Assembly: GCA_017853175.1 (NCBI GenBank)
Contig: JAFMKA010000012.1
Span: 1-41,288 of the forward strand
Direction: 5' to 3'
Source of the DNA: Steroidobacteraceae bacterium
GTDB lineage: Bacteria > Pseudomonadota > Gammaproteobacteria > Steroidobacterales > Steroidobacteraceae
Length of the DNA: 41,288 nucleotides
Shown here piece after piece: positions 4,993-27,749 of the stretch. The first letter of the stretch is position 1, and every line of letters begins with the position of its first letter. The position numbers and the translations under genes are program-made. A model generated the notes under the pieces. It had not been told where the DNA came from. It did no database searches and saw only the letters and a program-made list of their open reading frames with translations.

Positions 4993-5823
4993 CTACCAGC
5001 GATTACGCAGCTCGCGCAGTTTCAAAAAAATCTCACGGGGGCCTGGTCGGTCGGCGAGATCCGGAAAAACTTTACGTAGCCCCTCGATCACCGCTGGGTT
5101 TTGCAGTCTGAAAAACGTGTTGATGCGCCGTTCGTCGCCGAGCGTCGTGACGGGCGCTCGCGCGCCATCCAAATCTTGCACTCTCGCCAGTAGGGTCGCG
5201 GCATCGCGGTTATCCGGTTCGCGATCGAGGGTGAAGGCGAGGTTACGAACGAGATAGTCGTGTCCCGGATGGATACGGGTCGCGTCCGGCAGTGGCGCGA
5301 GCCGTTGTACGAACGTGTGGTAGAGCAGCTCCGGATCTCCCCCGTTGTGACAGTTGCCCGCGCCCGCATTGAATAATGTGTCGCCGCAAAGGAGCTCAGG
5401 TGGAACGTTGGATGATCTGCCCCGCATGAGCAGACACAGATGCGAGCGCGTATGGCCCGGCGTATCGAGACACTCGAGTTCTACGCTGCGGCCGACCCTG
5501 ACCGTATCGCCATGAGAAAGACCGCGATCTAGGCCGGGGATGCGTCCGGCTGCTCCGACATGCGCGAGCACTCGTGCTCGGGTCGCGGCTCGAAGCGGCT
5601 CGTTACCGCCGATGTGATCGCCGTGCTCGTGGGTATTGAGGATCTGGGTGATGGTCCAACCACGGGCCCGAGCCGTGGCCGCGCACAACTGCCAGTCGAG
5701 GGGATCGACCGCGAGGGCCTCCCCGGTCTCGGTACAGGCGATGAGGTAGTGGTAGTTACGCCACGCATTCGCCGGCCAAAGGCGTTCGATGATCATATTT
5801 TGACAGTGAATTTTAACACGCAT
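4993..5823 (-). CDS. GloB-like metallo-beta-lactamase-fold hydrolase (hydroxyacylglutathione hydrolase family)
   Basis: Glyoxalase II family members hydrolyse S-D-lactoylglutathione and related thioesters with a binuclear metal centre. The HxHxDH signature is THEHGDHIGG. Further ligands are seen in CLDTPGHTRSHLCL, LLCGDTLFNAGAGNCHNG and IHPGHDYL, and the C-terminal segment ERRINTFFR resembles the substrate-binding tail of GloB. From ATG 5823 it is 276 aa; ATG 5796 (267 aa) is equally compatible with homology. Extending to 5877 would run into the divergent pcs start and is unlikely. A weak GGGAG precedes 5823, and a TAAAAT hexamer (5815-5810) could serve ATG 5796. It diverges from pcs and converges on the VOC gene. 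The substrate is inferred from family only. Confidence 0.85.
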   Translation of the reverse strand: MRVKIHCQNMIIERLWPANAWRNYHYLIACTETGEALAVDPLDWQLCAATARARGWTITQILNTHEHGDHIGGNEPLRAATRARVLAHVGAAGRIPGLDRGLSHGDTVRVGRSVELECLDTPGHTRSHLCLLMRGRSSNVPPELLCGDTLFNAGAGNCHNGGDPELLYHTFVQRLAPLPDATRIHPGHDYLVRNLAFTLDREPDNRDAATLLARVQDLDGARAPVTTLGDERRINTFFRLQNPAVIEGLRKVFPDLADRPGPREIFLKLRELRNRW

Positions 5824-5840
5824 CTTTTCACATACTCCCG

Positions 5841-5866
5841 TGCTAGTCTGGGCTTGGGGGTCGGAG
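5841..5866 (+). promoter_or_regulatory. Putative extended -10 and ribosome binding site of the pcs operon
   Basis: TGCTAGTCT at 5841-5849 matches an extended -10 (TGn plus TAGTCT) and would start transcription near 5856. GGAG at 5863-5866 is followed by 10 nt and then the pcs ATG at 5877. No clear -35 is present, as expected for an extended -10 promoter. A TTGACA occurs at 5800-5805 but has no -10 at proper spacing. No operator-like palindrome is evident between the two divergent genes. Confidence 0.35.
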
Positions 5867-5876
5867 TGCGGCATCA

Positions 5877-8800
5877 ATGTCGAGTTTTAACGGGTCCATG
5901 GACACGGCCCCGACGCCCGTGGCGGTTACGCCACCGTCGGCTTCCGTAAACCCCTTCGTCCACCGAGCTGCTTGGCAGGCTGCGCGCGATGCGTGCGCAG
6001 CAGACCCTGGCAAGTTTCATGGCGGTATCGCCAGTCGCGAAATTCATTGGTTCGAGCCCAAGGCCGGGCCGCAGGGCGCATGGATTACTCGCGACGCCGA
6101 AGGGCGTTGGCGAGGATTCGACGCTCGAACCGGCGAACCCGTCGAACCTTCCCTGCCTCAAAGTTATCTACCCTGGAGCCGCGGACTCGATGATTCCGAG
6201 GCGCCGTTCTATCGATGGTTCAGCGATGCCCTGACGAACGCGTGCTTCAATGAAGTCGATCGTCATGTCCTCGCCGGACATGGCGCCGAGGCGGCATTGT
6301 GGTTCGAGGGAGATCGTTGGGACCAGTCGCAAGATGGCGGACGCGGCGCTCCCGTCGTTTCTTATAGTGTCTCGCGCAAGCAGCTGATGCTCGAGGTGGC
6401 GCGGTGTGCACTCGCGCTGCGTCATCTTGGCCTCAAGGCAGGCGATCGCATCGCGATCAACATGCCGAATATTCCCGAGCAGATCTACTGGACCGAGGCC
6501 TGCAAGCGTCTCGGTATCGTCTACACGCCTGTGTTTGGTGGATTCAGCGATAAAACGCTATCGGATCGTATCCACAACGCAGGCGCTCGTATCGTCATCA
6601 CGGCCGATGGTGGCTATCGGAACGCGCAAATTGTCGCGTTCAAAGAGGCGTATACCGACCCGGCTCTCGATGGTTATGTACCCGCTGAGACGGCGATCGC
6701 TGCGGTGACTCAAGCGCTCGAGTCTCTCGGTCTCGAAACACTGCACTCCAACGCGATTCTCGAGGGCGCACGCAAAGCCGTCGCCAATGAAATCACTCTC
6801 GAACGCTCGGATGTCATGCGCGGTGTCGGCCGAGCACTCGAGGGGATCTCCGGGCTTTCGCCGTCTGCCGCCAGTCGAATTCGTACAGCGATCGCCAGCG
6901 CCCTCGTGACAACTCCACCGCGAGTCGACACGGTCGTGGTCGTCAAACATGCGGGACAAGCCGACATCGTGTGGCGTCCGGAGCGAGATCGTTGGGCCCA
7001 CGCGCTGACCGATGCTGCGATGCAAACGTTGTTGGAGGGTGCACGCAAGGCGGGTCATGCCGTTACCGATGAAGCGCAGTTATTGGCGCTCGATGATCGC
7101 GCCTTCGTCGCCGCGATCTGGGCGACGGTTCCTCCGGAGCCGCTCGACGCCGAATTCCCGATGTTCTTTATCTACACGTCGGGCTCGACCGGAAAACCCA
7201 AAGGCGTCGTGCATGTTCACGGCGGTTACGTCAGCGGGGTCGCCTATACCCTGCGTGTGGCATTTGACGCCCGCGCCGGAGACGTGATGTACGTGGTCGC
7301 TGATCCGGGCTGGATCACGGGACAGAGCTACATGATTTGCGGCGCTCTCACGACGCGCGTGACGACGGTGATTGCTGAAGGAGCGCCTGTTTTTCCGAGT
7401 GCCGGCCGCTTCGCGAGCATCATCGAGCGGTTGAAGGTCAATATATTCAAAGCCGGCGTGACCTTCCTCAAAACCGTGATGACTGATCCGCAGAACGTCG
7501 AGGACGTGCGTGCGTACTCGCGTGCAAGCCTGCGTGTTGCAACGTTTTGCGCCGAGCCCACTTCGCCGGTGGTTCAGCAGTTCGGTATGGAGCTCGTCAC
7601 GCCTTGGTACACCAATTCGTATTGGGCGACGGAGCACGGCGGTATCGTGTGGACACACATGTTCGGCAATGCGGACTTCCCGCTGCGTGCCGATGCGCAT
7701 ACTTATCCGCTGCCGTGGATTATGGGCGATGTTTGGCTCGCCGATAGTGAGCCCGATGAGTCGGGCACGGTCGTTGCGCGCGCGGCAGATGCCGGCGAGA
7801 AGGGCGAAATCGTGATCGCGGCGCCGTTTCCGTATCTCTGCCGCACTATTTGGGGCGCGGAGGGAGACTTCAAAGTCGAGGGGCGTCGAGTCGTCCGTCA
7901 ATGGCGTGGCGATTTCGAGCGGTACCGAAAAACGTATTGGACCCGCTGGAAGGGGCAGCTTGCCTACACGCAGGGCGACTTCGCAGTGAAGTACGCCGAT
8001 GGCGGTTTCTCGTTGCATGGACGATCGGACGACGTGATCAACGTGTCGGGTCATCGACTCGGCACCGAAGAAATCGAAGGCGCAATCCTGCGCGATAAGC
8101 AGGTGAATCCGGACTCACCCGTCGGTAATGTCATCGTGGTCGGCGCACCGCACGCACAAAAAGGTTTGACACCGCTCGCGTTCGTCCGGCCCGCGCCCGG
8201 CCGCAAAATCACTGCTGAGGATCGTCGTCGTCTAATCGAGACCGTCCGACAGGAAAAAGGTCAGGTTGCGATTCCGGAAGACTTCGTCGAAGTCACGCAG
8301 TTCCCCGAGACTCGTAGCGGCAAATACATGCGACGCATGGTGCGCGCCCTCGTCGAAGGCCAGGAGGTCGGCGACACATCGACGCTGCGCAACCCCGAAT
8401 CTATCGCCGAACTGCGCAGCGCGATTGCCGAGTGGCAAGCGCGCCAGAGAGTCGCGGACGAGCAGCAGCTTTTCGAAGACTTTCGTTATTTCAGAATTCA
8501 TTACCACTCGCTCGCGGCGCCTTCGGTCGGCAAGCGACGCTCAAAAAAGACTGCGCTGCGCATTGCGGTCATCACGATCAACAACCCACCGGTGAACGCG
8601 CTCAACGAGCGCGCCCTCGACGAGCTCAACATCGTGATCGATCACGTTGCGCGGCGTGATGACGTCAAGGCCGTGGTGTTCACCGGGCAGGGAACCTCGG
8701 CATTCGTCGCCGGTGCCGATATTCGCCAGCTCTACGAAGACGTCCATACGCTCGACGAAGCCCTTCCGCTGCCGAACAACGCGCATCTCGCATTTCGCAA

Positions 8801-11372
8801 GATCGAGGCGATGGACAAACCTGCGATCGCGGCGATCAACGGCGTCGCACTCGGCGGCGGGATGGAATTCGCGATGGCGTGTCACGTGCGCGTTGCCGAG
8901 CCACTCGCCACCTTTGGACAACCTGAAGTTCGTCTCAATCTATTGCCGGGATACGGCGGCACACAAAGATTACCGAGACTGCTCGAGCAGGCGGGTCATC
9001 CGTCACCGCTCGTGCGTTCGCTCGAGATCATCATGGGCGGCAGAACGCTCGAGGCTGCAGAAGTTCAGGCCGATGGTTTACTGCACGCGTTGTCAGATGA
9101 CAACGAAGACGTGTTGGCACTCGCGACACGACTCGCCCGCGAGTATGTCGCGGCGCCTGCGGGGCGCAATCTCGTCGCAAAGGCCTTTGCTGCGCGCCGA
9201 GCGGCGAATGCGGCTTGGCAATCTGCGGGGCGCGCCGATTTCGATGCCGCGCTAACGGATTCGGAAGTGCAGCGTTTGCTCGCGCAAGCGCGAGCCGTCG
9301 GGCGCGGCCCCACAGCCGAGCGGATTTTCGATGCCGTTAAGACGGGTTGGCATCAGGGCATCGGCGCGGGACTCGCTCGCGAGGCACAGTTATTTGCCGA
9401 GGCGATCGTCGATCCTCAAGGTGGAAAGGCGGGCATTCGAGCGTTCTTCGATAAGCAGAGCGCGCCGTTGCCGACGCGCCGCGCCGAAACACCCCGAACG
9501 GAACAGGTCGGAGATCTCGTCAAGCGAGGCGATTTGCTTCCGGTCGGCGCCGCATTTTTCCCTGGACTGACTCCGCTACCGAAATGGCAATACGGTCACG
9601 CTGTCGTCAAAGACGAACGAACCGGAGCGCCAGCTCACGGTCTTCCGAAGAACGCTGAGCGAGAGATCATCGTACCGGTGCCGACACCCGGCCCGAACGA
9701 AGCGCTCGTGTATGTGTTGGCGTCCGAGGTCAACTTCAATGATATCTGGGCGATCACCGGCATCCCGGTTTCGCCTTTTGATAATCACGATCTCGACTAT
9801 CAAGTCACGGGCTCCGGCGGAGTCGCCCTCATTGCGGCGGTGGGCAGCGAGGTCAAGCGCGAAGGCCGATTGAAAGTCGGCGATCTCGTCACGGTGTATT
9901 CCGGACAAAGCGACTTGCTGTCTCCGCTCGCGGCCCGCGATCCGATGTATGCCGGATTTTCAATTCAAGGATATGAAACCGACACCGGTAGCCATCAACA
10001 GTTTCTGCTCGTGCAGGGACCTCAGTTGCATTCGCTACCCCCCGATCTCACGCTAGAAGCCGCCGGTTCGTACGTTCTCAATCTCGGTACGGTGGTTAGA
10101 GCCCTCTTCACCACCTTACAGATCGAAAGTGGCAAGACGCTGTTCGTCGAAGGTGCCGCGACGGGTACCGGATTCGAAGCGCTCAAGAGCGCTGCGCGTA
10201 ATGGACTCACGAGCGTCGGCTTGGTGTCGAGTTCAGAGCGCGCGACATTCATTGCCGGACACGGCGCTGCAGGCGCCATCAATCGCCGCGATCCGCGTTG
10301 GGCGAAAGCGTTCACGGTCGTTCCTGAGAGTGCGGCAGACATTGCGGCATGGGAGCAGGCGGGCGAGCCCATTCTCGATGAAATGCGGCGACAGGCGGAC
10401 GGTCGACTGGCGGACTATGTGGTGTCACATGCCGGGCAGGAGTCCTTCCCGCGTTCCTTCCAGTTGTTGGCCGAGAACGGCACGCTGACTTTCTACGGCG
10501 CGACGAGTGGTTACTGGTTCTCTTTCGTCGGCAAACAAGGCGCTGCGACACCCGAGGAGATGCTTCGTCGGGCGCGGTTGCGGGCCGGCGAAGCCGTACT
10601 GCTGTATTACGGAGTCGGCGCGCAAGATCTTCTCGACCCAGTCGGGCTCGAGGCGATCGAGGCTGTACGCAAGGCCGGTGGACGACTGGTCGTGGCGACG
10701 GCTACCGATGCTCAGAGAGAGTTCGTACAGTCGCTCGGTTACGGCGATGCCGTGCGCGGCGTCGTATCCATCGAGGAAATCCGTCGCAAGGAGGGTGCGG
10801 ACTTCGATTGGCCATCGGCGCTTCCCGCCATGCCCGACTCAAAGAAAGATACGGTGCGTTTCAAAGAGGCCGTACGACAATTTCAGGATCGCACCATGAA
10901 GCCTTTTGGTGGTGCGATCGGACGATGGTTACGCTCTGCAGACAATCCGCGCGGCTATCCAGATCTCATTATCGAGCGTGCGGGGCATGATGCCCTCGCG
11001 GCCTCGACGTCACTAGTCAAACCGTTTACGGGCCGAGTGGTGTATTGCGAGTCGATGGCCGGCCGTCGCTATACGTTCTACGCACCGCAAGTCTGGATGC
11101 GGCAGCGACGAATCATCATGCCCACCGCCACGATTGCCGGAACGCATTTATGCAACGCGTTCGAAGTTGCCCGCATGAACGACATGATCGCAGCAGGGCA
11201 ACTCGAGGTTAGCCCGCCGACCATCGTTCCGTGGAGCGAGCTACCTGCCGCTCACCAGTCGATGTGGGATAACACTCACGCTGGAGCGAATTACGTTGTT
11301 AACCATGCGCTGCCAAGGATCGGGTTGCGCTCGCGCGATGAACTTTTCCAGGAATGGGGAGCGGCTCGATGA
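5877..11372 (+). CDS. pcs: Trifunctional propionyl-CoA synthase (ligase / dehydratase / acrylyl-CoA reductase)
   Basis: Converts 3-hydroxypropionate, CoA, ATP and NADPH to propionyl-CoA through 3-hydroxypropionyl-CoA and acrylyl-CoA, the key step after malonyl-CoA reductase in the 3-hydroxypropionate bicycle. The 1831 residues match the size of Chloroflexus Pcs (about 1820 aa). Domain 1 (about 20-870) is an AMP-forming acyl-CoA synthetase with YTSGSTGKPKG at 433-443, a GRSDDVINVSGHR hinge motif and a SGK catalytic lysine at K816. Domain 2 (about 885-1180) is a crotonase with an oxyanion GADIRQL motif and both catalytic glutamates (E997 in GGGMEF, E1017 in GQPEVRL). Domain 3 (about 1220-1831) is a zinc-free medium-chain reductase related to crotonyl-CoA carboxylase/reductase. 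Its TGA overlaps the mcr ATG. No frameshift is seen, and domain order is exactly that of the family. Confidence 0.95.
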   Translation: MSSFNGSMDTAPTPVAVTPPSASVNPFVHRAAWQAARDACAADPGKFHGGIASREIHWFEPKAGPQGAWITRDAEGRWRGFDARTGEPVEPSLPQSYLPWSRGLDDSEAPFYRWFSDALTNACFNEVDRHVLAGHGAEAALWFEGDRWDQSQDGGRGAPVVSYSVSRKQLMLEVARCALALRHLGLKAGDRIAINMPNIPEQIYWTEACKRLGIVYTPVFGGFSDKTLSDRIHNAGARIVITADGGYRNAQIVAFKEAYTDPALDGYVPAETAIAAVTQALESLGLETLHSNAILEGARKAVANEITLERSDVMRGVGRALEGISGLSPSAASRIRTAIASALVTTPPRVDTVVVVKHAGQADIVWRPERDRWAHALTDAAMQTLLEGARKAGHAVTDEAQLLALDDRAFVAAIWATVPPEPLDAEFPMFFIYTSGSTGKPKGVVHVHGGYVSGVAYTLRVAFDARAGDVMYVVADPGWITGQSYMICGALTTRVTTVIAEGAPVFPSAGRFASIIERLKVNIFKAGVTFLKTVMTDPQNVEDVRAYSRASLRVATFCAEPTSPVVQQFGMELVTPWYTNSYWATEHGGIVWTHMFGNADFPLRADAHTYPLPWIMGDVWLADSEPDESGTVVARAADAGEKGEIVIAAPFPYLCRTIWGAEGDFKVEGRRVVRQWRGDFERYRKTYWTRWKGQLAYTQGDFAVKYADGGFSLHGRSDDVINVSGHRLGTEEIEGAILRDKQVNPDSPVGNVIVVGAPHAQKGLTPLAFVRPAPGRKITAEDRRRLIETVRQEKGQVAIPEDFVEVTQFPETRSGKYMRRMVRALVEGQEVGDTSTLRNPESIAELRSAIAEWQARQRVADEQQLFEDFRYFRIHYHSLAAPSVGKRRSKKTALRIAVITINNPPVNALNERALDELNIVIDHVARRDDVKAVVFTGQGTSAFVAGADIRQLYEDVHTLDEALPLPNNAHLAFRKIEAMDKPAIAAINGVALGGGMEFAMACHVRVAEPLATFGQPEVRLNLLPGYGGTQRLPRLLEQAGHPSPLVRSLEIIMGGRTLEAAEVQADGLLHALSDDNEDVLALATRLAREYVAAPAGRNLVAKAFAARRAANAAWQSAGRADFDAALTDSEVQRLLAQARAVGRGPTAERIFDAVKTGWHQGIGAGLAREAQLFAEAIVDPQGGKAGIRAFFDKQSAPLPTRRAETPRTEQVGDLVKRGDLLPVGAAFFPGLTPLPKWQYGHAVVKDERTGAPAHGLPKNAEREIIVPVPTPGPNEALVYVLASEVNFNDIWAITGIPVSPFDNHDLDYQVTGSGGVALIAAVGSEVKREGRLKVGDLVTVYSGQSDLLSPLAARDPMYAGFSIQGYETDTGSHQQFLLVQGPQLHSLPPDLTLEAAGSYVLNLGTVVRALFTTLQIESGKTLFVEGAATGTGFEALKSAARNGLTSVGLVSSSERATFIAGHGAAGAINRRDPRWAKAFTVVPESAADIAAWEQAGEPILDEMRRQADGRLADYVVSHAGQESFPRSFQLLAENGTLTFYGATSGYWFSFVGKQGAATPEEMLRRARLRAGEAVLLYYGVGAQDLLDPVGLEAIEAVRKAGGRLVVATATDAQREFVQSLGYGDAVRGVVSIEEIRRKEGADFDWPSALPAMPDSKKDTVRFKEAVRQFQDRTMKPFGGAIGRWLRSADNPRGYPDLIIERAGHDALAASTSLVKPFTGRVVYCESMAGRRYTFYAPQVWMRQRRIIMPTATIAGTHLCNAFEVARMNDMIAAGQLEVSPPTIVPWSELPAAHQSMWDNTHAGANYVVNHALPRIGLRSRDELFQEWGAAR

Positions 11373-14300
11373 TCGTCAGGACGACCAAGATCAAAAAGAC
11401 CAAGAAATCGAAGACCAAGACGGCTGTATCAAAAAAAACAGTCGCCAAGGCGAGCGCGCCCAAACTATCCGCGGCTAAAGCCAAACCGACGTCCAAGCGC
11501 GCGTCGACGAAAGTAACCGTTGCGGCTGCAAGACCCAGCCGTTCACGAGTGAAGCGACTCGCCGGAAAAGTGGCTCTCGTATCCGGCGCAGCCGGCAATA
11601 TCGGCGAGGTGATCGTACGGCGCTATCTTGAAGAAGGTGCCCGCGTCGTAATGGTCGGACGAAATCGGGCGAAACTCGAGGCCGCGCGCGAGAAACTGCT
11701 TGCGACAACCGGTGCTCCTGCGAGTCACGCATACGTTCTCGATTTCGATGCCTCAGATTCTGGGCAGGCCCGATATGGCGTCGAAGCGACGATGCGTCAC
11801 TTCGGTCGAATAGACATACTCGTCAATAATGCCGGCTCCGCCGGTCCGAAGGCGCCGATCGAAAAACTGCCTCTGTCGCGTGACGAGCTGGACAGCCAAC
11901 GCGCGGCTGGCTCGACCGACACCGAGACCGTAGCCGACGCTGCCGGAAACTTACTCGGGCTAAGTTGGAACATGGTTCGAGCGACGGCGCCTCATCTGCA
12001 GGCTGGTGCGTCGATCATCAACGTCTCGACGATTTTCTCGCGAACCAAATATTTCGGGCGTGCAGCTTACGTTGTTCCGAAATCCGCGCTCAATGCGTTC
12101 TCGCGACAACTCGCGTTGCAGCTGGGTCAGCGGGGCATCCGAGTCAACACGGTATACCCAGGCCCCATCGAGAGTCAGCGCATTCGGACGGTGTTCAAGG
12201 CGATGGACCAGTTGCGCAAAGCGCCTGATGGGACGACGGCCAATGATTTCATCTCAACGATGGCACTGTCGCGAGCCGAGCCCGAGACGGGTGCGACGCA
12301 TACTTTTCCGAGCGTCGAAGACGTTGCCAACACCATCGTTTTTCTCGGCAGCGATGAATCTCAAGCGTTCAGTGCCCAAGGGTTCGAAGTCACGAATGGC
12401 ATGCAGGTCATGCAAGAGTCGCGATCGACTTGGGTATCGCGACCCGAACTTCGGACCGTGGATGGAACGGGCTCGACAGTGCTCGTGGCAGCCGGGGATC
12501 AGGTCGCCGATGCTCTGACCATCGCCCGTATCCAAGCGGGCTGTGGTGCCCGCGTTCTTTTAGGTCTCGGCACCGAAGAGGCGGTGCAAGCGGCTGTAGC
12601 CGCATTGCAAAACAGCGACGCCGATCGTCGCATCAAGCCCGTACTTTTCGATCGTCATCGTCCCGACACGTTGGCGAACTCGCTTGCATCGGTCGATCCC
12701 GCTCAAGCATTGCATGGCGCCGTGGTACTGCCGGCATTCGGTAACTGGCGTTTCAAGGCGCCGCTTTCTGAGGCCAGCGATGCGGATGTCGAAGCGTTTT
12801 TGAAGGGTGAACTTGCCGGCGCCATTGGTATCGCGAGAGAGCTCTCGCGCCTTTGGCACCGTCTTGCTCCGTCTGGCGTCAGCCCGCGGATCATTTTCAT
12901 GTCGAATGGTAGCGACGAGGCGGGCGATACCTATGCCGACATCCTGCGCGCAGGAATCGAACAACTCGTCCGCGTCTGGCGCGACGAGAGTGAAACGCAG
13001 GTGAAATCCGGCGATCGTGCGGCGCTCGAATGGTCGAACCAAATTCTTCGCTGGTCGAATACGGAAGAGAACGGCTTGCTCTTCGCCGGCGCTCAGGCGG
13101 CTCGCTTGCTTTACACCAAGCGACGCGTTCCGCAGGTGAACCTTTATATGCCTGCCGCAATCGTCGATGCGACGGGTTCCACGCGTCCTAACTTCGGCTG
13201 GATCGAATCGCTCATGGGCTTGCACCTCGGCAAGTGCGTGCTGATCACGGGTGGCTCGGCGGGTATCGGAGGTCAGTTGGGGCGCTTACTCGCGATCTCC
13301 GGCGCACGAGTCATGCTCACGGCTCGTCGCGAAAATCAGCTGATCGATCTGCGTGACAGCATCGTTCGCGAGCTCGAAGAAATCGGCTACAACCGACCGC
13401 ATGAACGAGTTCGCATTCTCGCCGACATCGATGTCGCCGATGAAAATGGACTCGTTAAATCGGTTGCCGCGACCCTCAAGGCCTTTGGCCGTATCGACTA
13501 TCTGATCAACAACGCCGGGGTCGCGGGAGCCGAGCAGATGGCCGTCGATTTGCTGCCCGAAGACTGGCGCAACACGCTGCATGCCAATCTGGTGTCGAAC
13601 TATTCCCTCATCGAAAAAGTCGTTCCGATGATGAAGCAGCAGGGGTCGGGCTACATCCTAAACGTCAGCTCTTACTTCGGCGGCGAGAAATACATCGCTG
13701 TGCCTTATCCGAACCGATCCGACTACGCCGTTTCTAAAGCGGGCCAGCGCGCCCTCGTCGAAAACCTCGCACGATTCGTGGGTCCAGAAATTCAGATCAA
13801 TGCCATTGCGCCGGGGCCCGTCGAAGGCCAGCGTCTCAAGGGCAAGGATGGCAAAGCGGGGCTCTTCGATCGTAGGGCTAAGTTGATCCTCGAAAACAAA
13901 CGTTTGAATCAGTTGCATGGTGCCGTGCTGAAGGCTCTCGCCGACGGCTCAACGATCGATGCCGTTCTTGGTGCGATGTGCTCCAACGACATCGGTTTAT
14001 TGCAGTCACCCGAGGCACCCGCCGCTTTACGGGAGCTGAGCATCAAACTGAAATCGGAGGCTAATGGCTCCGAAGAGCCGACTCATTCGTCGTTGCACTT
14101 CTTGATGACGCGACCGATGGCGACTCGACTCGTCGCGCGTTTGCGTAATGGCTGCCTGATGCCGCAGGTTATTCATCATGATCTGGCTGAGCGATGGATT
14201 CTCGATCTACCCGTTCCGCCGGAGCCTTTCATCGACCCTGCGCGTATCGAGATCGAAGCCGAAAAAATTCGCACCGGTGTGATCGGCATGTTGCACCTCA

Positions 14301-15190
14301 ATCGCATGCCCACCGAAACCGATGTCGCGCTCGCCACGGTGTTTTTCATGGCAGACCGAGCGATCTCGGGCGAAACCTTCGAACCGTCTGGCGGCTTGCA
14401 ACAAGAACGTACGATCACCGAGCGCGAGCTTTTTGGCCGTGCCAAGCCTGAGCGTGTGCGACGGATGGAAGGCGAGACGATCTGGCTCATCGGCGAACAT
14501 ATGTCCGAACCACTCGCCGCGGCTGCGAAGTTATTTTTGGCGGAGGGCCACGTTGGCAGTATCGTAATGCTGACGCGCACGGCTGCTGCAGGGGATGCGA
14601 TCAAGTTCTCACTCGGCCGCGCACTCGGGCACGACCGAATTTCATATCTTGCGGTCGGCGACGCGCTCGAAGAAGGCATGGACAACGCGTTCGCTAGTCA
14701 CGGACCGCCGGCCGCCGTGGTGTCGACGCCATTCGCGCCGATTCCGCGTGCGCTGTTCGGCATTGAAGGTAAGGATCATCTCGCCGCGCCGGAATTTTCC
14801 GAACTCATCGAGATGAATCTAACCCATCATTTCCGAGTGGCGCGTAAGGTGTCTTTGTTCAAAGGAGCCCGACTCATTCTCACTTCGCCGGACGTACCCG
14901 CCGGAGGCACTCTGGCTCAGTTCGCGATGGCCAATTTCGTGAAGACCACGTTGCATGCATTCACCGCGACGCTGGGCGTCGAAAACGAGCGTCTACCGAC
15001 TGCGGTGCCGGTGAACCAAGTCAATCTCACGCGACGCATGCGTAGCGAAGAGCCGAGAGATGCCGCCGAGCAAGCCGAGGAATATCAACGCTATGCTCAT
15101 GCGGTGTTGTTGGCTGCCGCCCCCATCGTCGAGGCACAAGAGAGCCGGTATCGCGCTCGAATCTATCGAGGACTCGCCATCACGGTATGA
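11369..15190 (+). CDS. mcr: Bifunctional malonyl-CoA reductase with Lys-rich N-terminal tail
   Basis: Reduces malonyl-CoA to malonate semialdehyde (C-terminal half) and then to 3-hydroxypropionate (N-terminal half), using two NADPH. Four short-chain-dehydrogenase modules are visible. The first has SGAAGNIGE (about 71-79) and YVVPK (Y234, K238). The third has TGGSAGIGG (627-635) and YAVSK (Y786, K790). The second and fourth are degenerate, as in Chloroflexus Mcr (about 1220 aa), and the C-terminus [10 protein letters not shown] nearly matches that enzyme. I chose ATG 11369 over ATG 11354 because it forms an ATGA overlap with pcs and has GGGGAG 7 nt upstream. This gives 1273 aa with a 60-residue tail containing 15 Lys, 5 Arg and no Asp/Glu. 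In-frame GTG 11549 would give a tail-free 1213-aa protein but has no ribosome binding site. Confidence 0.95.
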   Translation: MIVRTTKIKKTKKSKTKTAVSKKTVAKASAPKLSAAKAKPTSKRASTKVTVAAARPSRSRVKRLAGKVALVSGAAGNIGEVIVRRYLEEGARVVMVGRNRAKLEAAREKLLATTGAPASHAYVLDFDASDSGQARYGVEATMRHFGRIDILVNNAGSAGPKAPIEKLPLSRDELDSQRAAGSTDTETVADAAGNLLGLSWNMVRATAPHLQAGASIINVSTIFSRTKYFGRAAYVVPKSALNAFSRQLALQLGQRGIRVNTVYPGPIESQRIRTVFKAMDQLRKAPDGTTANDFISTMALSRAEPETGATHTFPSVEDVANTIVFLGSDESQAFSAQGFEVTNGMQVMQESRSTWVSRPELRTVDGTGSTVLVAAGDQVADALTIARIQAGCGARVLLGLGTEEAVQAAVAALQNSDADRRIKPVLFDRHRPDTLANSLASVDPAQALHGAVVLPAFGNWRFKAPLSEASDADVEAFLKGELAGAIGIARELSRLWHRLAPSGVSPRIIFMSNGSDEAGDTYADILRAGIEQLVRVWRDESETQVKSGDRAALEWSNQILRWSNTEENGLLFAGAQAARLLYTKRRVPQVNLYMPAAIVDATGSTRPNFGWIESLMGLHLGKCVLITGGSAGIGGQLGRLLAISGARVMLTARRENQLIDLRDSIVRELEEIGYNRPHERVRILADIDVADENGLVKSVAATLKAFGRIDYLINNAGVAGAEQMAVDLLPEDWRNTLHANLVSNYSLIEKVVPMMKQQGSGYILNVSSYFGGEKYIAVPYPNRSDYAVSKAGQRALVENLARFVGPEIQINAIAPGPVEGQRLKGKDGKAGLFDRRAKLILENKRLNQLHGAVLKALADGSTIDAVLGAMCSNDIGLLQSPEAPAALRELSIKLKSEANGSEEPTHSSLHFLMTRPMATRLVARLRNGCLMPQVIHHDLAERWILDLPVPPEPFIDPARIEIEAEKIRTGVIGMLHLNRMPTETDVALATVFFMADRAISGETFEPSGGLQQERTITERELFGRAKPERVRRMEGETIWLIGEHMSEPLAAAAKLFLAEGHVGSIVMLTRTAAAGDAIKFSLGRALGHDRISYLAVGDALEEGMDNAFASHGPPAAVVSTPFAPIPRALFGIEGKDHLAAPEFSELIEMNLTHHFRVARKVSLFKGARLILTSPDVPAGGTLAQFAMANFVKTTLHAFTATLGVENERLPTAVPVNQVNLTRRMRSEEPRDAAEQAEEYQRYAHAVLLAAAPIVEAQESRYRARIYRGLAITV

Positions 15191-15840
15191 AGATCGAAGT
15201 TGTTCCGGTTACTGCCTTCCAGCAGAACTGTAGCGTCGTATGGTGTGAGGACACGCGGCGTGCGGCAGTGGTTGATCCGGGCGGTGATCTCGATCGTGTT
15301 TTGGCAGCCGTCGAGCGGCATGGTCTGACGCTCGAGAAGATTCTCATCACCCATGCACATCTCGATCATGCCGGAGCGACGGCCGAACTGGCCCGCCGAT
15401 ATTCGCTACCGATCGAAGGGCCGCAGACGGACGATCAGTTCTGGATCGATCAGATGCCGGCGCAAGCCGAGATGTTCGGCTTTCCGCCCTCCGAGCGCTT
15501 CGCACCTGATCGCTGGCTGGTACAAGGGGACCGGGTCACCGTCGGTGAAGTCGAGTTCGAAGTGCTGCACTGTCCCGGACATACACCCGGGCACGTCGTG
15601 TTTTTCCAACGCATTTCACGGTTTGCCATCGTCGGTGACGTGATTTTTGCGGGCTCCATCGGCCGTACCGATTTTCCACGCGGCAACCATGATCAGCTGT
15701 TGCGCTCGATTCGTGAGAACTTGTTTCCGCTAGGCGACGACGTGACCTTTTTACCGGGTCACGGACCTACGTCCACCTTTGGTGCAGAACGGCGTAGCAA
15801 TCCGTTCGTGGCAGATCGTCTGTTTTCAGATCGCGTGTAG
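15187..15840 (+). CDS. GloC/YcbL-like metallo-beta-lactamase-fold hydrolase, coupled to mcr
   Basis: A 217-aa hydrolase, close in size to E. coli YcbL (GloC, a type II glyoxalase). The metal-binding HxHxDH is H56-A-H58-L-D60-H61. Further ligands lie in [29 protein letters not shown] and [12 protein letters not shown], all standard for this subfamily. The ATG at 15187 overlaps the mcr stop as ATGA, so translation is probably coupled to mcr and the gene forms the third cistron of the pcs-mcr operon. Family knowledge suggests thioester hydrolysis. Whether it acts on a glutathione thioester, on a CoA thioester of this pathway, or has a general detoxification role is inference. Its 3' end overlaps the convergent ctaB gene by 15 nt. 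Confidence 0.88.
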
Positions 15841-16737
15841 TTGGGTGGTCGGCAGATAGTGATCGACCAGCAACGCGATGAACAGCCACATCAAGTATGA
15901 AATAGAAAACTTGAAGATCTTCATCGGTAGCTCGGCACGAGCTGTCAGCTTGAGCGCGAACGCGTAATACAGAAATCGTGCATTCAGCACGAGCACGGCG
16001 GCGAGATAGATCAGGCCGCTCATTCCCGATATCCAGGGCATCAAAGTCACGAGCACCAACAATACCGTGTAGAGCAATACCTGCAGGCGGGTATAGGGGA
16101 TGCCGTGGGTCACGGGAAGCATCGGAATACCGGCCTTCGCATATTCATCACGACGGGCGATGGCGAGCGCCCAAAAGTGCGGCGGCGTCCAGATGAAGAT
16201 GATGAGGAACAGCAATAGCGCGTTTGGCTCGATCGAGTTGGTGACAGCGGCCCAACCGAGTACGGGCGGAGCCGCTCCTGCTGCGCCACCGATGACGATA
16301 TTTTGCGACGTCGCCCGCTTGAGGAATACGGTGTAGATCACGGCATAACCAATCAGCGAAGCGAAGGTGAGCACCGCCGTCAGTGGGTTTACGAGGAACC
16401 ACAGGATGAGCATCGAAAGCACACCAAGTGAAAACGCAAACGTGAGCGCCTGAGAAGTTTTCAGCGTACCGGTTGCGAGTGGACGCTTCTGCGTACGCGC
16501 CATCTGCTCGTCGATTTTTTGATCGAGGACGTGGTTGATCGCCGCAGCACATCCTGAGGCGAGTGCGATGCCAAGATTTCCCCAAAGCAGCGCATCGAGA
16601 GGCGGTATGCCCGGGCTTGCGAGCAACGTCCCCACAATGGCGGTGAAGACGATGAGTGCGACAACCTTAGGTTTCGTGAGCTCGAGGTAGAGCTTCCACG
16701 TTGGGCGATTCGTAAGAGCGCTGGCAGGGGTCGACAT
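15826..16737 (-). CDS. ctaB: Protoheme IX farnesyltransferase (heme O synthase)
   Basis: Adds a farnesyl chain to heme B to make heme O, the precursor of heme A for the aa3 oxidase encoded nearby. The 303-aa protein is a UbiA-superfamily membrane prenyltransferase with about nine hydrophobic segments. The first Asp-rich motif is in [16 protein letters not shown], followed by KRPLATG. A second conserved loop is [16 protein letters not shown]. It starts 1 nt after the heme A synthase stop and is the last gene of the surf1-SCO-like-ctaA-ctaB unit. Its C-terminal codons overlap the convergent hydrolase gene. The alternative name cyoE refers to the same family; the ctaA neighbour favours ctaB here. 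Confidence 0.95.
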
Positions 16738-16738
16738 C

Positions 16739-17785
16739 TCAGGCCTCGCGCAAGCGGCGGTTAAGGAGAATCATCGACATCAGCAACAACGCTGCTCCGG
16801 CGTTGTGTCCTGCCGCCAGCGATAGAGGGAACGCTTTGAGAATCATCAAAAAAGCGATGAGCAGCTGAACGCCCAGTGCTCCGATCGCCCAGTAGCCGGC
16901 TCGCCTCACGAGCGGAGTCGGAGCACGGCTGATGGCGAGCCATGCCGCGAACAACACGGCCAAGGTTGCGACGATAGCGCCCATTCGGTGAGTGAAATGA
17001 ATGGCGACTCGCGCCGGGTGTTCGAGCACGCCTCCGGTGTAGTTGATGTCGAGCCCTCGCCAAAGTACGAATGCCTCGCCGAAATCCATGCCCTCGGGCC
17101 ACCACTGCTGCTGGCACTTCGGCAGATCTGGGCAGGCTACCGCGGCGTAATTGCTGCTCGTCCAACCGCCGAGCATGATTTGGAAGGCAACGACGATCGT
17201 TGCGACTACGGCCATTCGACGTGCGCCATCGAGCGCAGAGATATGTGTAGCACCCGGCGTAGGCTCGACGATTCGGGTTCGGCGCCGCATATCGAGCCAC
17301 AACCACAGCAGCAGTGAGAGAGTCGTGAGCCCACCGATCAGATGTAGAACGACCACGAGAGGTTTGACCAACCACCACACCGTGAAGGCTCCGAGTGCAC
17401 CCTGCAACACCACGACGACGAGTAATCCGAGCGCCAAAGGAAGGCGGACCGGCCGTTCACGTCGGTAAGCGAGAGCAATCGCTGTGATGAGCACGATGAT
17501 GAAGCCAAGGCTCGTCGCGGCATAACGATGGATCATTTCGCGCCAGGCTTTGCCGGAATCGTATTCCCACCCCGGAGAGTAGGACTCGATCTTCCCCTCA
17601 TTGCGTTCCGCGCCGGCAGGCGTGACATGACCATAACAGCCCGGCCAGTCGGGACAGCCGAGACCCGCATCGGTCAGTCTCACCCAAGCACCGAGAACGA
17701 TGACTACAAGACACAACGCCACGCCGAGTAAGGCGAGTCGTCGAACGGCAACGGCACCCGAAGGAATGGAAGCATGGGTAGACAT
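16739..17785 (-). CDS. ctaA: Heme A synthase (COX15/CtaA family)
   Basis: Oxidises the C8 methyl group of heme O to the formyl group of heme A in the membrane. The 348-aa protein has about eight hydrophobic segments. Candidate heme-ligand histidines occur in [27 protein letters not shown] and AAGHNAGAA. Two extracytoplasmic cysteine pairs are seen, one in [13 protein letters not shown] and one in ACPDLPKCQ. The first transmembrane segment follows a short N-terminus ([16 protein letters not shown]). It sits 6 nt after the SCO-like gene and 1 nt before ctaB. Having both ctaA and ctaB implies a true heme-A oxidase rather than an o-type quinol oxidase. Confidence 0.94.
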
Positions 17786-17791
17786 AGATGA

Positions 17792-18403
17792 TCAGCCGAT
17801 GTGTGAAAGCTTGAGAAGTTTTTCGAGGTCTTGCAGCAGACCCTTCGGGTTCTGACGCGAATCGAATCGCATCATGAGGTTGCCGAGCGGATCGACGATG
17901 AAAATGTAAGGCGTGACTCCTGCGGCATCACGCGGAAATTGAGTCAGCCACGCCTGCGCTTGGTCGCCAGAGACCTGTAGGGTTTCGAGTCCCGGATGCT
18001 CGGCCGTCAAAAACGCCGAATCACAGCAATTGCTCTCGGCGATGAACACGCGCTGTACGCGGTCCATATCTTCGGCGAGCAAGAGACGAGTCTGACGGAT
18101 GGTCCAAAGAGCCTGTCGGCAGGTCTCGTCACAACGTCCGTCATCGATGTAGAGCAGCGTCCACTTGCCGCGGAATAAATTTTCCTTCGCCGTAGAACCA
18201 CCGAGAGTGGTGAGCTCGTATTGCGCGAGGGGTCTGGCGGGCGAGATCAGTTCGCCGTGATTCGTGCTGCCCGCAGGTCGCCAACCTCCCGAGTAATACA
18301 GCCAGAAGGCGCCCATCAGTGGAATGAAGAACAGGGCCGCAAGCCCGATCAGCGCTCCCCGACCGGAGTTCTGAGTGTGAACCTTAGGAGTCTCAGTCGT
18401 CAT
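17792..18403 (-). CDS. SCO-like membrane-anchored thioredoxin-fold protein, probable oxidase assembly factor
   Basis: A 203-aa protein with one N-terminal membrane anchor (about residues 20-40, ALIGLAALFFIPLMGAFWLY) and a periplasmic domain. That domain carries CxxxC in GRCDETCRQ, resembling the copper-binding CxxxC of SCO1/SenC proteins. The following WTLLYIDDG and the later TPYIFIVDPLGNLMMRF fit a thioredoxin fold. An extra CC pair (SNCCDS) is unusual, and I cannot place the distal His of classical SCO. I chose ATG 18403 because it overlaps the SURF1 stop as ATGA; a longer reading from 18472 would lie inside surf1. Family and position between surf1 and ctaA suggest a role in CuA-site maturation, but this is inference. 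Confidence 0.8.
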   Translation of the reverse strand: MTTETPKVHTQNSGRGALIGLAALFFIPLMGAFWLYYSGGWRPAGSTNHGELISPARPLAQYELTTLGGSTAKENLFRGKWTLLYIDDGRCDETCRQALWTIRQTRLLLAEDMDRVQRVFIAESNCCDSAFLTAEHPGLETLQVSGDQAQAWLTQFPRDAAGVTPYIFIVDPLGNLMMRFDSRQNPKGLLQDLEKLLKLSHIG

Positions 18404-19149
18404 TCTGCATCCCGTTTCTTTAAATTCATGACCACGAATAACACCAGCAGCAGTACGGCAAAACTCCACCACTGAATCGCATAAGACCAGTTTTGTTCTG
18501 GTCCTTTGACGAAGGGCTTCCAGTCACGCCGATAACCGTTGGGTGCCGAAGCATCGAGCAACACCACCCTTGTCTCAAGACGTCCTTCGTCGACCCCCAG
18601 CGCGCGGGCGAGTTCCGCGGGCAGCGGAAATGCCGTCACGCGAGGCCAGCTTCCTGAAACGGCCGGTGCCGCCCGGCCTCCTGCCAGTCCTGCCGCAGGC
18701 AGTTCGTCGAGTCTGCCAGCGACGGTCACCCGATCATCGACCGATGGCAAATCCACATCGGGTAGACGATCGCGGTAACCCTCGAAAGGCAACCATCCCC
18801 GATTCACCAACAGCACGCGTCCATCGTCGAGCTGCAGTGGCGTCATCACTTCGTAACCGGCTCGTCCGTCGCGTGTGCGATTATCGAGCAGAAACTGGCG
18901 AGAGCTGTCCCATGCTCCGCTCACTTCAACGCGCGAGTAGCGCGGCAGATCGGTCGTCGCCTTCGAGCCGAGTGCGACAGCGTGATCAGCGCCCATCGTG
19001 AACTCTTCACTCAGGCGCTGCTTGAACTCCGCACGGCCCCATTGCCAACGGCCGAGGCTGATGAAGAGAACTAAAAGCAGCAGGGTGATGACAGTCATCA
19101 GCCACGACGGAGAAAAAACCCTGCGGCCGACGGCGATTCTGAGCGGCAC
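18400..19149 (-). CDS. SURF1 family cytochrome c oxidase assembly protein
   Basis: SURF1 proteins help insert heme A into subunit I. The 249-aa protein has the expected two membrane segments, one near the N-terminus (TVITLLLLVLFISLGRWQWGRA) and one near the C-terminus (SYAIQWWSFAVLLLVLFVVMN). Between them lies a periplasmic domain containing the family signatures GRWQWGRAEFKQ, VSGAWDSSRQFLLDNRTR, VLLVNRGWLPF and the AIQWW C-terminal motif. The start is GTG 19149, only 18 nt from the divergent gene at 19168 and with no ribosome binding site. It heads the surf1-SCO-like-ctaA-ctaB unit and is coupled to the next gene by ATGA. Confidence 0.92.
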   Translation of the reverse strand: MPLRIAVGRRVFSPSWLMTVITLLLLVLFISLGRWQWGRAEFKQRLSEEFTMGADHAVALGSKATTDLPRYSRVEVSGAWDSSRQFLLDNRTRDGRAGYEVMTPLQLDDGRVLLVNRGWLPFEGYRDRLPDVDLPSVDDRVTVAGRLDELPAAGLAGGRAAPAVSGSWPRVTAFPLPAELARALGVDEGRLETRVVLLDASAPNGYRRDWKPFVKGPEQNWSYAIQWWSFAVLLLVLFVVMNLKKRDAE

Positions 19150-19154
19150 GGTCT

Positions 19155-19161
19155 TATAATA
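19155..19161. promoter_or_regulatory. Opposed, overlapping -10 hexamers (TATAAT / TATTAT) between surf1 and the DUF2909 gene
   Basis: The plus strand carries a perfect TATAAT at 19155-19160, which would put +1 at about 19167-19168, the first base of GTG 19168. The minus strand carries TATTAT at 19161-19156, which would put +1 at about 19149, the first base of the surf1 GTG. Both genes lack room for a leader, so both mRNAs are predicted to be leaderless. No convincing -35 is visible on either side. Confidence 0.5.
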
Positions 19162-19167
19162 ACGGTT

Positions 19168-19380
19168 GTGGAACTCTTTCGGCTCCTTGTTGGCATCGTG
19201 ATGCTGGGCATCGTTATCAGCCTAGGCTCGGCCTTGTTCCATCTCATGACCGATAAAGGTGATTCCAAGAAAATGGTCAGAGCGCTGACGGTCCGCGTGG
19301 GCTTGTCGGTGGGTCTCTTCCTGCTACTCATGGCAGCGTGGGCCGCTGGCTTGATCCAGCCGCTCGGCGCCGGACGCTAA
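19168..19380 (+). CDS. Twin-transmembrane DUF2909 protein
   Basis: A 70-aa protein with two hydrophobic helices. The first is about residues 2-24 (FRLLVGIVMLGIVISLGSAL) and the second about residues 45-66, joined by a short charged loop (TDKGDSKKMVRALTVR). This pattern and the position between oxidase subunit III and SURF1 fit the DUF2909 family seen in many proteobacterial oxidase clusters. Its role is unknown and an assembly function is only inferred from location. The start is GTG 19168 directly downstream of a TATAAT hexamer. It is the only plus-strand gene within the oxidase region, and its stop overlaps the U-tract side of the ctaE terminator. Confidence 0.8.
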   Translation: MELFRLLVGIVMLGIVISLGSALFHLMTDKGDSKKMVRALTVRVGLSVGLFLLLMAAWAAGLIQPLGAGR

Positions 19381-19409
19381 AAAGCAAACGGGCCGGTTAC
19401 CCGGCCCGT
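19379..19409 (-). terminator. Rho-independent terminator of the ctaC-ctaE unit
   Basis: A 9-bp perfect stem, ACGGGCCGG (19388-19396) and CCGGCCCGT (19401-19409), has a 4-nt loop. Read on the minus strand it is followed by TTGCTTTTT (19387-19379), a U-rich tail. The plus-strand side lacks a T run, so it mainly serves the minus-strand oxidase genes ending at 19448. A second smaller hairpin, GGTGGC-AGTC-GCCACC at 19425-19440, lies just upstream of it. Confidence 0.8.
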
Positions 19410-19447
19410 CGCATCATCTTAAGGGGTGGCAGTCGCCACCTGAGTCA

Positions 19448-20335
19448 TCAGACCCAGTAGACGAACACGAACAGTCCCAGCCAGACCACGTCAACGAAGT
19501 GCCAGTACCACGCGACGGCCTCGAAGCCGAAGTGTCGCTGCGGCGTGAAGTGACCCTTCATAGTTCGGAACCAGATGACGAGCAACATGATGGCACCGAG
19601 CGTCACGTGTACGCCGTGGAAGCCCGTCAGCATGAAGAACGTCGATCCGTAGATGCCTGTGGACAGCGTGAGTCCGAGTTCCGTGTAGGCGTGAATGTAT
19701 TCCTCGGCCTGCAGTCCTACGAACAAAAAGCCCAATAAGAAGGTTGCCGCGAGGAAAATATTGAGAATCTTGCGATTGCCCTCTTTGAGCGCATGGTGCG
19801 CGATGGTGATCGTGACACCCGAGAGCAGCAAGATCGCCGTGTTGATGGCAGGCAGCCCGAAAGCCGGAATGGTTTCGAAAGAACCATCGTCACGCGGGCC
19901 GAGGGCCGCCGGGCCGTTCGTCGGCCAAGTGGCGGTGTAATCCTGGAACAGCAGCAACTTGTTGAAGATCTTCACGCCTTCACCGCCGATCCAGGGAACC
20001 GACAGTTGTCGCGCATAAAAGAGTGCGCCGAAGAAGGCAGCGAAGAACATCACTTCAGAGAAGATGAACCACATCATTCCCATTCGGAATGACTTGTCGA
20101 CCTGCATGTTGTACATGCCGCGCTGATGCTCGTTGATGACGACAGCAAACCAGCCGACGAAGAGCGCGATCAGCATGACCACACCGGTGGCGAACACCCA
20201 AGGCCCGTACCACTCGTTGAGCCAGCCACACAGTCCGATCATGAACACGAACAGCGTTGCCGAACCGTAGATCGGCCAGGGGCTTTCGTGAGGAACGTAA
20301 TACTTATCGGCAGCGTGTTCTGTGGCGTTGGCCAT
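19448..20335 (-). CDS. ctaE: Cytochrome c oxidase subunit III
   Basis: A 295-aa integral membrane subunit of the aa3 oxidase that supports proton uptake and stability of the catalytic core. About seven hydrophobic segments are visible. Family signatures include the N-terminal YYVPHESPWPIYGS, MWFIFSEVMFFAAFFGALFYAR with its conserved Glu, and the C-terminal FHGVHVTLG and VAWYWHFVDVVWLGLFVFVYW. An internal segment of about 30 residues between the ARQLS and INTAILL helices contains NGPAALGPRDDGSF and is hydrophilic. It begins 10 nt after ctaG and ends at the terminator near 19388-19409. Confidence 0.96.
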   Translation of the reverse strand: MANATEHAADKYYVPHESPWPIYGSATLFVFMIGLCGWLNEWYGPWVFATGVVMLIALFVGWFAVVINEHQRGMYNMQVDKSFRMGMMWFIFSEVMFFAAFFGALFYARQLSVPWIGGEGVKIFNKLLLFQDYTATWPTNGPAALGPRDDGSFETIPAFGLPAINTAILLLSGVTITIAHHALKEGNRKILNIFLAATFLLGFLFVGLQAEEYIHAYTELGLTLSTGIYGSTFFMLTGFHGVHVTLGAIMLLVIWFRTMKGHFTPQRHFGFEAVAWYWHFVDVVWLGLFVFVYWV

Positions 20336-20345
20336 ATGGTATTTC

Positions 20346-20897
20346 CTAGTTCAGCGCGGCGACCCGCGTCGAGTTATCGTAAAAAACGTAAGACAAAGTG
20401 ACCCGATCGATGCTCTTGGGTAGGTTCGGGTCGATCACGAAGCGCACCGGCATGACGCGCTCTTCGTCTTTCGCGAAATTCTGCGGAACGAAGCAGAAGC
20501 ATTCCGTCTTACGAAAGAACGCAGTCGCTTTACCGGGCGCGACACTCGGGATCGCTTGTGCGACCGTATCGCGTCCCGTCAGGTTTCGGGCGACATAATC
20601 GATTTCATACAACCGACCCGGAGTCACCTTCATTTCGGCGGTGACCGGGTGAAACTCCCAGCTGCCGACGGTCGGCAGATCTGCAACGAATTCGACGGTG
20701 ACCTGTCGCGACTCGTCGTACTCGACTGACTGCACATTGGAGGCGCGCAGCAGATCTTTGGGATTGCCAACACCGGTGATGTCGCAGATCACGTCGTAGA
20801 GCGGAACCAAAGCAAATCCGAACGCGAAGGCACCCGCTGCGAATCCGAGCAAGCGCAACGTCAGACGACGATTGCTTTGATCGCGCGACTCGCTCAT
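20346..20897 (-). CDS. ctaG: Cytochrome c oxidase assembly protein CtaG (Cox11)
   Basis: Delivers copper to the CuB site of subunit I. The 183-aa protein has one N-terminal membrane helix (about 11-31, [25 protein letters not shown]) and a periplasmic beta-domain. The copper-binding CFCF motif is clear in [12 protein letters not shown]. The [14 protein letters not shown] motif after the helix and [22 protein letters not shown] near the end are further Cox11 marks. The ATG overlaps the stop of the preceding 42-aa gene as ATGA, so the two are probably coupled. Confidence 0.95.
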
Positions 20898-21022
20898 TGC
20901 CTAAAGCCCAGAAGCGACATCAGGATAAATGCCAGATAGAACCCGAACGCGACGAGGCCGAGCACGATCGCTGAGCGTTTCACTCGGCGAGCGCGTTCGG
21001 CGTCGTTGGCGTTGGGCTCCAT
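20894..21022 (-). CDS. Small oxidase-associated membrane protein (42 aa)
   Basis: A 42-residue reading frame begins with ATG 21022 and encodes a charged N-terminus ([16 protein letters not shown]) followed by one membrane helix ([20 protein letters not shown]). It lies between ctaD (stop at 21043) and ctaG, overlapping the latter as ATGA. Small single-helix proteins with this position are known in proteobacterial oxidase operons as a cytochrome oxidase small assembly protein. A longer upstream reading to 21151 would run inside ctaD and is rejected. The precise function is unknown. Confidence 0.75.
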
Positions 21023-21042
21023 CGCGTAGCGTCCGTGACGAC

Positions 21043-22650: not shown

Positions 22651-22710
22651 GATGTTCGTGCTCTCTCGAATTGAATCTGGTGTTGAATTCTTTGGTTAGT
22701 CGTCGACGAT

Positions 22711-24229: not shown

Positions 24230-25529
<1,300 letters not shown>

Positions 25530-25533
<4 letters not shown>

Positions 25534-27639: not shown

Positions 27640-27749
27640 GGTGTTTCCCGGTTCGATGACGACATTGGCGGGCTGCCAGAGGGCGCTGCCCGAGGCAGTC
27701 TTTCGCGCTGCTGTCCGGATGTTCCTCAAGGGCGGGGGAGGCTGTCAAC

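Follow-up and report, generated by a model that had tools for sequence, protein, structure and literature searches.

What do two very large adjacent genes, encoding a predicted propionyl-CoA synthase (Pcs) and a predicted bifunctional malonyl-CoA reductase (Mcr), do in a gammaproteobacterium? The pair lies in a stretch of 41,288 nucleotides (the window), contig JAFMKA010000012.1 of the Steroidobacteraceae bacterium assembly GCA_017853175.1. In our numbering this is contig C89 of a 1.92 Mb genome in 128 contigs that is 81% complete. The original prediction, made from the letters alone, had recognized the signature enzymes of the 3-hydroxypropionate (3HP) bicycle and listed several roles for them. 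We consider it likely that the pair is a two-enzyme anaplerotic module for CO2 co-assimilation in a predicted aerobic anoxygenic phototroph. Its most likely job is light-supported co-assimilation of bicarbonate with use of NADPH; enzyme activity and its direction, the flux, and the dependence on light are our inference. The two genes are as follows.

5877..11372, + strand: pcs, trifunctional propionyl-CoA synthase (CoA ligase, enoyl-CoA hydratase and enoyl-CoA reductase domains), 1831 aa; assigned from the open reading frame (ORF), domains and homologues.

11354..15190, + strand, likely start 11369: mcr, bifunctional malonyl-CoA reductase, 1278 aa from the first ATG; assigned from the ORF and homologues.

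Both ORFs are intact and are the two largest in the window, and matches to three solved proteins bear out the earlier description of the genes as full-length. Residues 30–1830 of Pcs align with the solved chain 6eqo (2452 bits), a protein of the Erythrobacter/Porphyrobacter group. A single chain holds the CoA-ligase, enoyl-CoA hydratase and zinc-type enoyl-CoA reductase domains. Residues K816, E997 and E1017 are invariant in the alignment, and we take the first to be the ligase lysine and the other two to be the crotonase glutamates. Pcs relatives within the order Steroidobacterales are 54–97% identical. Mcr aligns end to end with two solved full-length enzymes, over residues 64–1278 with 8hi4 (1219 bits) and over residues 66–1278 with 8hjw (1151 bits), the latter presumably the Chloroflexus protein.

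Conservation of the catalytic residues, also claimed at the outset, could be checked for Mcr. A study of the Roseiflexus enzyme names Thr165-Tyr178-Lys182 and Tyr172/Arg175 in SDR1, and Ser731-Tyr749-Lys753, Tyr743, Arg746, Arg785, Leu795 and Arg799 in SDR3 (PMC10470521). In the 8hi4 alignment, every one of these catalytic and substrate-binding residues that could be placed is kept, as T226, Y239, K243, Y233 and R236 in SDR1 and as S773, Y791, K795, Y785, R788, R827, L837 and R841 in SDR3. All are invariant among ten aligned Mcr sequences (the window's and nine others), and the counterpart of Roseiflexus Arg1164 is probably R1213. Judged from these alignments, the pair is full-length and intact and consists of known enzymes, Pcs and a bifunctional Mcr of Chloroflexus type, with predicted activity.

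The joint between the genes depends on the start of mcr. The second ATG, at 11369, is residue 6 of the longest ORF, and from there pcs and mcr share an ATGA; the first ATG, at 11354, gives a 19-base overlap. We favor 11369 because GGGGAG lies directly 5′ of it and most relatives in the genus have a start codon in the matching place. The ATGA overlap proposed earlier accordingly stands with the start at 11369 and falls with the start at 11354. From 11369 to 11554, Mcr begins with a Lys/Ala-rich tail of about 60 residues that is not found in the solved full-length enzymes and is histone H1-like in look. Lysine-rich tails of about 20–65 aa, depending on the start, occur in most genus relatives (L025 and L050 are without one), and Mcr starts in most other lineages are shorter and less lysine-rich.

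The reactions and cofactors of the Mcr/Pcs route are established biochemistry. In the proposed role, acetyl-CoA carboxylase would provide malonyl-CoA, which Mcr would reduce to 3HP with 2 NADPH. Pcs would activate 3HP (ATP to AMP), dehydrate it and reduce it with 1 NADPH to propionyl-CoA, and propionyl-CoA carboxylase (PCC), an epimerase and methylmalonyl-CoA mutase (MCM), encoded elsewhere in the genome, would complete the passage to succinyl-CoA. The net conversion would be acetyl-CoA + 2 HCO3- to succinyl-CoA, with the cost met by light-driven ATP and NADPH consumed as well. Contig C21 of the same genome holds a cluster with MCM (1287 bits, cut-off 876), MeaB, a PccB-like carboxyltransferase, a PccA-like protein of biotin-carboxylase type and an epimerase-type Glyoxalase_4 protein. 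The mutase and MeaB exceed their NCBIfam cut-offs; the carboxylase subunits and the epimerase are named from family resemblance. On contig C15 we found accD, the sole acetyl-CoA carboxylase gene looked for. The route from acetyl-CoA and 2 HCO3- to succinyl-CoA is therewith predicted to be largely encoded in this genome.

A search for PCC and MCM had been suggested by the original prediction, which held the enzymes that complete the bicycle to be absent. That is right for the window, fits what was found for the mesaconyl half of the cycle in the incomplete genome, and does not hold for PCC and MCM. For malyl-CoA lyase and the mesaconyl-CoA enzymes, the suggested search yielded no convincing half-cycle gene set in the 81%-complete genome, where CoA transferases were not searched. 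The single HpcH_HpaI match is far under the NCBIfam cut-offs (RipC 163 of 375 bits, citE 155 of 443 bits). The PF19315 search returned no full-length mesaconyl-CoA hydratase from the incomplete genome, its only match above cut-off being a short RipB/Ich-like protein. In another family of the order, genome G109 carries genes for a CoA-transferase, a 2-methylfumaryl-CoA isomerase-like protein (658 bits, under the cut-off of 725) and a mesaconyl-CoA-hydratase-like protein (L222, G109:C30:55000-62000), with an HpcH_HpaI match in the same cluster. This cluster lies about 9–14 kb downstream of mcr, and the only mutase found in G109 is IcmF-like.

Genes for phototrophy are also present. On contig C20, pufM (500 bits, cut-off 364) lies with pufC and puhE, alongside dxs and ispH. 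Of pufLM, which the original prediction had proposed to look for, pufM was thus found; the contig ends at this gene, so that pufL was not seen. In G187, the nearest relative (97% identity in Pcs) and the genome covered by the bch search, bchX, bchY, bchZ and pufC share one stretch. COX1, COX2, COX3 and assembly genes lie within the window. From these genes the host is predicted to be an aerobic anoxygenic phototroph, presumably of freshwater type, an assumption we draw from sample names in record titles. With the PCC/MCM-type cluster and the reaction-centre genes, mixotrophic carbon assimilation emerges as the best supported of the roles first listed.

Across the order, Pcs was found in 17 of 296 genomes (15 whole, 2 split at contig ends), with mcr beside pcs in all 17. 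The reaction-centre family PF00124 was matched in 17/17 Pcs-positive and 23/279 Pcs-negative genomes (Fisher p 4.9e-17, with kinship ignored). The four Pcs genera of the order all fall among its 15 reaction-centre genera of 68, for which the chance is 0.0017. Nine of the ten sampled genomes of the genus have the pair. In a sample of the class, Mcr (E 1e-100 or better) was limited to 2 of 369 genomes, the host's own and G369, both among the seven with PF00124. The pair had been called rare, which is true of the class and untrue within the genus.

The association extends to other lineages. We took the best 80 of 312 Mcr relatives, each at least 50% identical over its best segment, a sample that stops short of distant Mcr such as those of Chloroflexota and Actinobacteriota. 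PF00124 was tested in 50 of the 80 genomes, omitting 14 of the own genus (L042-L053, L057, L086) and L106-L121. Four of the 50 belong to this order: L056 (= G170), L087 (= G031), and L058 and L065, which fall in the own genus clade. The family was present in 46/50, or in 42/46 when those four are removed. A Pcs match of more than 600 bits lies on the locus in 73 of the best 80 Mcr loci; among the seven without one, six have a contig end in mcr or at most 1.7 kb upstream, and three of these six have a Pcs fragment. Out of 88 loci looked at, 23, each with a sphingomonad title, have a gene of accA type directly behind mcr (one member checked in Pfam, PF03255).

Several records in this set deserve comment. 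In L054, titled as a Rhodocyclaceae metagenome-assembled genome (MAG), Mcr is 75% identical to the window's and the 10 kb upstream is without pcs; either Mcr is used alone or pcs lies elsewhere. L048 and L053 are titled Klebsiella pneumoniae MAG and belong to the window's genus by gene content and synteny, so the titles look like labelling errors. A 3041-aa ORF spanning pcs and mcr in L081 proved to be a frame artefact, pcs being in another frame.

A number of observations weigh against the proposed role or its tie to phototrophy. G275, of the same genus, has a reaction centre without Pcs, and across the order Pcs is missing from 23 of 40 genomes with reaction centres. Conversely, L060, L081, L093 and L096 (4/50) have Mcr without PF00124, and key 3HP-bicycle enzymes are given for 27 Actinobacteriota MAGs in PMC9802188, which weakens a strict tie. 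Among genomes of the order with reaction centres, canonical MCM was found in 10/17 that have Pcs and in 5/23 that do not, the match in G043, one of these five, being partial; 7/17 Pcs-positive genomes are without it. The MCM of G170 is 559 aa long, and G073, G017, G031, G105, G109 and G121 have an IcmF-like fused protein only. The last part of the route thus differs between genomes, and MCM is not specific to Pcs carriers. Isocitrate lyase and malate synthase A are encoded on contig C128, and isocitrate lyase matches occur in 17/17 Pcs-positive genomes (weakly in G261) and in 262/296 genomes of the order overall. The module therefore need not stand in for the glyoxylate shunt, and we rejected that replacement as its role, for which the lyase was expected to be missing where Pcs is present. 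The incompleteness of the host genome is a further weakness.

Co-assimilation must next be weighed against a use of the same reactions mainly as an electron sink, in which 3 NADPH would be oxidized per malonyl-CoA for redox balance in the light and carbon gain would be secondary. The known reactions include three NADPH-using steps, and the association with reaction centres fits such a use. RuBisCO, the classical electron sink of purple bacteria, was found in none of the 17 Pcs-positive reaction-centre genomes, the host's own included, and in 5/23 of the Pcs-negative ones. The accA-type gene after mcr in sphingomonads and the PCC/MCM-type genes of this host nevertheless fit carbon flow to succinyl-CoA. 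Sequence features do not separate a sink from assimilation, and we regard a predominant sink function as possible, if unlikely.

The link with phototrophy could also reflect shared ancestry only, the pair and the reaction centre having been inherited together and the statistics counting relatives. Members of the genus are close kin, and the Fisher value takes no account of phylogeny. Trees were built for 55 genomes, comprising 40 of the 46 PF00124-positives and 15 of the 17 Pcs-positives of the order (G298 and G327 are represented by G170 and G031; G342 is absent). G310, G317 and G335 (fragmentary pufM or an L-type match only), G149 (partial) and G244 were left out. These were quick LG+G4 searches, and the PufM alignment has just 252 columns, so that a failure of PufM to reject a single clade has less power. 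On supported branches, the label Gemmatimonadota changes at least three times in the Mcr tree and once in the PufM tree, and the members of the order in the f7 lineage stand far from the window's genus in the Mcr tree. A single Gemmatimonadota clade is rejected by Mcr (p-AU 2.7e-64) and not by PufM (0.877). A single clade for the order is likewise rejected by Mcr (p-AU 1.75e-5) and not by PufM (0.421); this constraint held 17 rows, with L058 and L065 included owing to their place near the genus. Mcr distances follow those of Pcs closely (rho 0.92) and those of PufM loosely (0.28; 48 genomes). The Mcr–PufM correlation on all 55 genomes, 0.27, still lies above all 999 permutations, which indicates some shared history. 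Given the rejected clades and the placing of the four Pcs genera, ancestry as the whole explanation seems improbable to us.

The trees and distances suggest that mcr and pcs are passed on together, by descent and by transfer, and for the most part independently of pufM, although the pair occurs where reaction centres are. It appears to have been recruited by reaction-centre lineages more than once, a reading built on gene trees without a species tree. With that caveat and the shortness of PufM, the distribution would exceed what simple co-inheritance gives. A broader proposal takes the mcr-pcs of this branch to be a mobile carbon cassette of two genes that hardly any bacteria but those with type II reaction centres retain. 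It would travel between phyla as a unit, independently of photosynthesis genes, and would have been taken up several times by lineages already phototrophic. To aerobic anoxygenic phototrophs the cassette would offer light-coupled CO2 uptake by a means other than RuBisCO. We advance this tentatively, at slightly under an even chance, a standing lowered by the range of the Mcr sample, which lacks distant Mcr, and by the Actinobacteriota with these enzymes in PMC9802188.

Other fates of propionyl-CoA were considered. The pair might feed it to odd-chain lipids or polyhydroxyalkanoate (PHA), or Pcs alone might salvage external 3HP or acrylate, all of which follow from the reactions. For PHA, PhaC_N was matched in 8/10 sampled genomes outside the genus (G244 below cut-off) and in one genus member, G251, the only match there; it was absent from 9/10 sampled genus genomes, the host's own included. 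PHA supply, one of the roles first suggested, was rejected for the genus on this absence. The constant presence of mcr beside pcs in the order argues for synthesis from malonyl-CoA and not for salvage alone, and we hold this group of explanations to be quite unlikely. That the host runs the complete autotrophic bicycle, mesaconyl-CoA (glyoxylate) half included, is very doubtful: it yielded only the sub-cut-off CitE/RipC-like lyase and the short RipB/Ich-like hydratase, even if its 81% completeness leaves room, G109 has its mesaconyl-type cluster, and PMC9802188 reports a complete bicycle from photosynthetic Burkholderiales and Gemmatimonadota.

The pair is flanked by the following features.

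4993..5877, - strand: hydroxyacylglutathione hydrolase-like gene, divergent, upstream of pcs; assigned from its domain and relatives.

15187..15840, + strand: metallo-beta-lactamase-fold hydrolase, glyoxalase II-like, overlapping mcr by ATGA; assigned from its domain.

15826..23610, - strand: heme-copper oxidase cluster with UbiA-type (ctaB), COX15-CtaA, SCO1-like, SURF1, COX3, Cox11, COX1 and COX2 genes.

24230-27729 of the window: biotin-type genes (BATS/radical SAM, aminotransferase, methyltransferase, AAA_26).

The flanking genes (uvrD, cox/cta) are syntenic among genus relatives, which places the pair in a genuine chromosome context and speaks against an assembly accident. For the divergent gene a true start at about 5800 is probable, as the alignments with most relatives open at residue 26-28. 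The metallo-hydrolase stands directly 3′ of mcr in all nine Pcs-positive sampled genus genomes. L058 (RGUL01000002.1) belongs to the genus Mcr clade yet lacks a metallo-hydrolase after mcr; its genus-type pcs-mcr has no uvrD, glyoxalase, metallo-hydrolase or cta neighbours and sits in another genomic place. In f7 (L034, L035, L037), a different metallo-beta-lactamase-fold protein lies directly upstream of pcs. A metallo-hydrolase was rejected as a general partner of the pair, because the two were seen side by side solely in the window's genus and, with that different protein, in the three f7 loci. Biotin-type genes sit near pcs and mcr in the window, and biotin is the cofactor of both carboxylases in the proposed route.

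Two further ideas were set aside. Foreign origin finds no support in base composition, GC being 0.599 in the pair and 0.599 in the remainder of the window. Physical linkage to the photosynthesis cluster was likewise dropped: pufM and mcr are on different contigs in the host genome, and among 40 pairs compared by eye the two are probably on the same contig in just four (L090, L092, L097, L103), about 42-178 kb apart.

The proposed module can be set beside several known systems. Like Chloroflexus and Roseiflexus, this host has a full-length bifunctional Mcr of the same layout and catalytic residues, and a predicted route from acetyl-CoA to succinyl-CoA; unlike them, it shows no convincing mesaconyl half and has the glyoxylate shunt and a heme-copper oxidase. 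The partial 3HP pathway of Erythrobacter and Porphyrobacter (Pcs 6eqo, PdMCR 6k8s, strain ULC335) likewise joins aerobic anoxygenic phototrophy to the two enzymes, Pcs and Mcr, in hosts that lack a full fixation pathway. The published account gives key 3HP enzymes for Erythrobacter NAP1 and Porphyrobacter ULC335, proposes CO2 co-assimilation and reports the 3HP genes of ULC335 to be up by day (PMC10674011). The present host differs in being a gammaproteobacterium, in the identity of its Pcs (63%) and Mcr (52%) with the E. dokdonensis (L098) enzymes, and in having ctaBA and the metallo-hydrolase next to the pair, not accA. In Burkholderiales, for which photosynthesis is noted, and Gemmatimonadota, bicycle genes also occur outside Chloroflexota; PMC9802188 reports theirs to share one operon with glyoxylate-salvage genes, which our genome does not show. 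Kentron is a mirror image, a gammaproteobacterium that, according to PMC6593406, uses an incomplete bicycle heterotrophically, having the rest and lacking Mcr and Pcs. An incomplete bicycle is also assigned to bloom-associated phototrophs in PMC11089705.

The open-licence literature searched yielded no paper that describes the pair for this genus, nor one on nested or repeated recruitment. The enzymes are known and the host lineage is new as far as we found; the recruitment pattern is the interesting part. Many aerobic anoxygenic phototrophs are without RuBisCO (in the order, 35 of 40 genomes with reaction centres), which puts the extent of their share in CO2 uptake in question. Should the pair be a marker of bicarbonate uptake supported by light, genomes would reveal where it is present, and labelled bicarbonate could serve to test the route. 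Repeated gain by reaction-centre lineages, if true, would allow the connection of light with this pathway to be tested in several phyla, instead of being deduced from an isolate or two.

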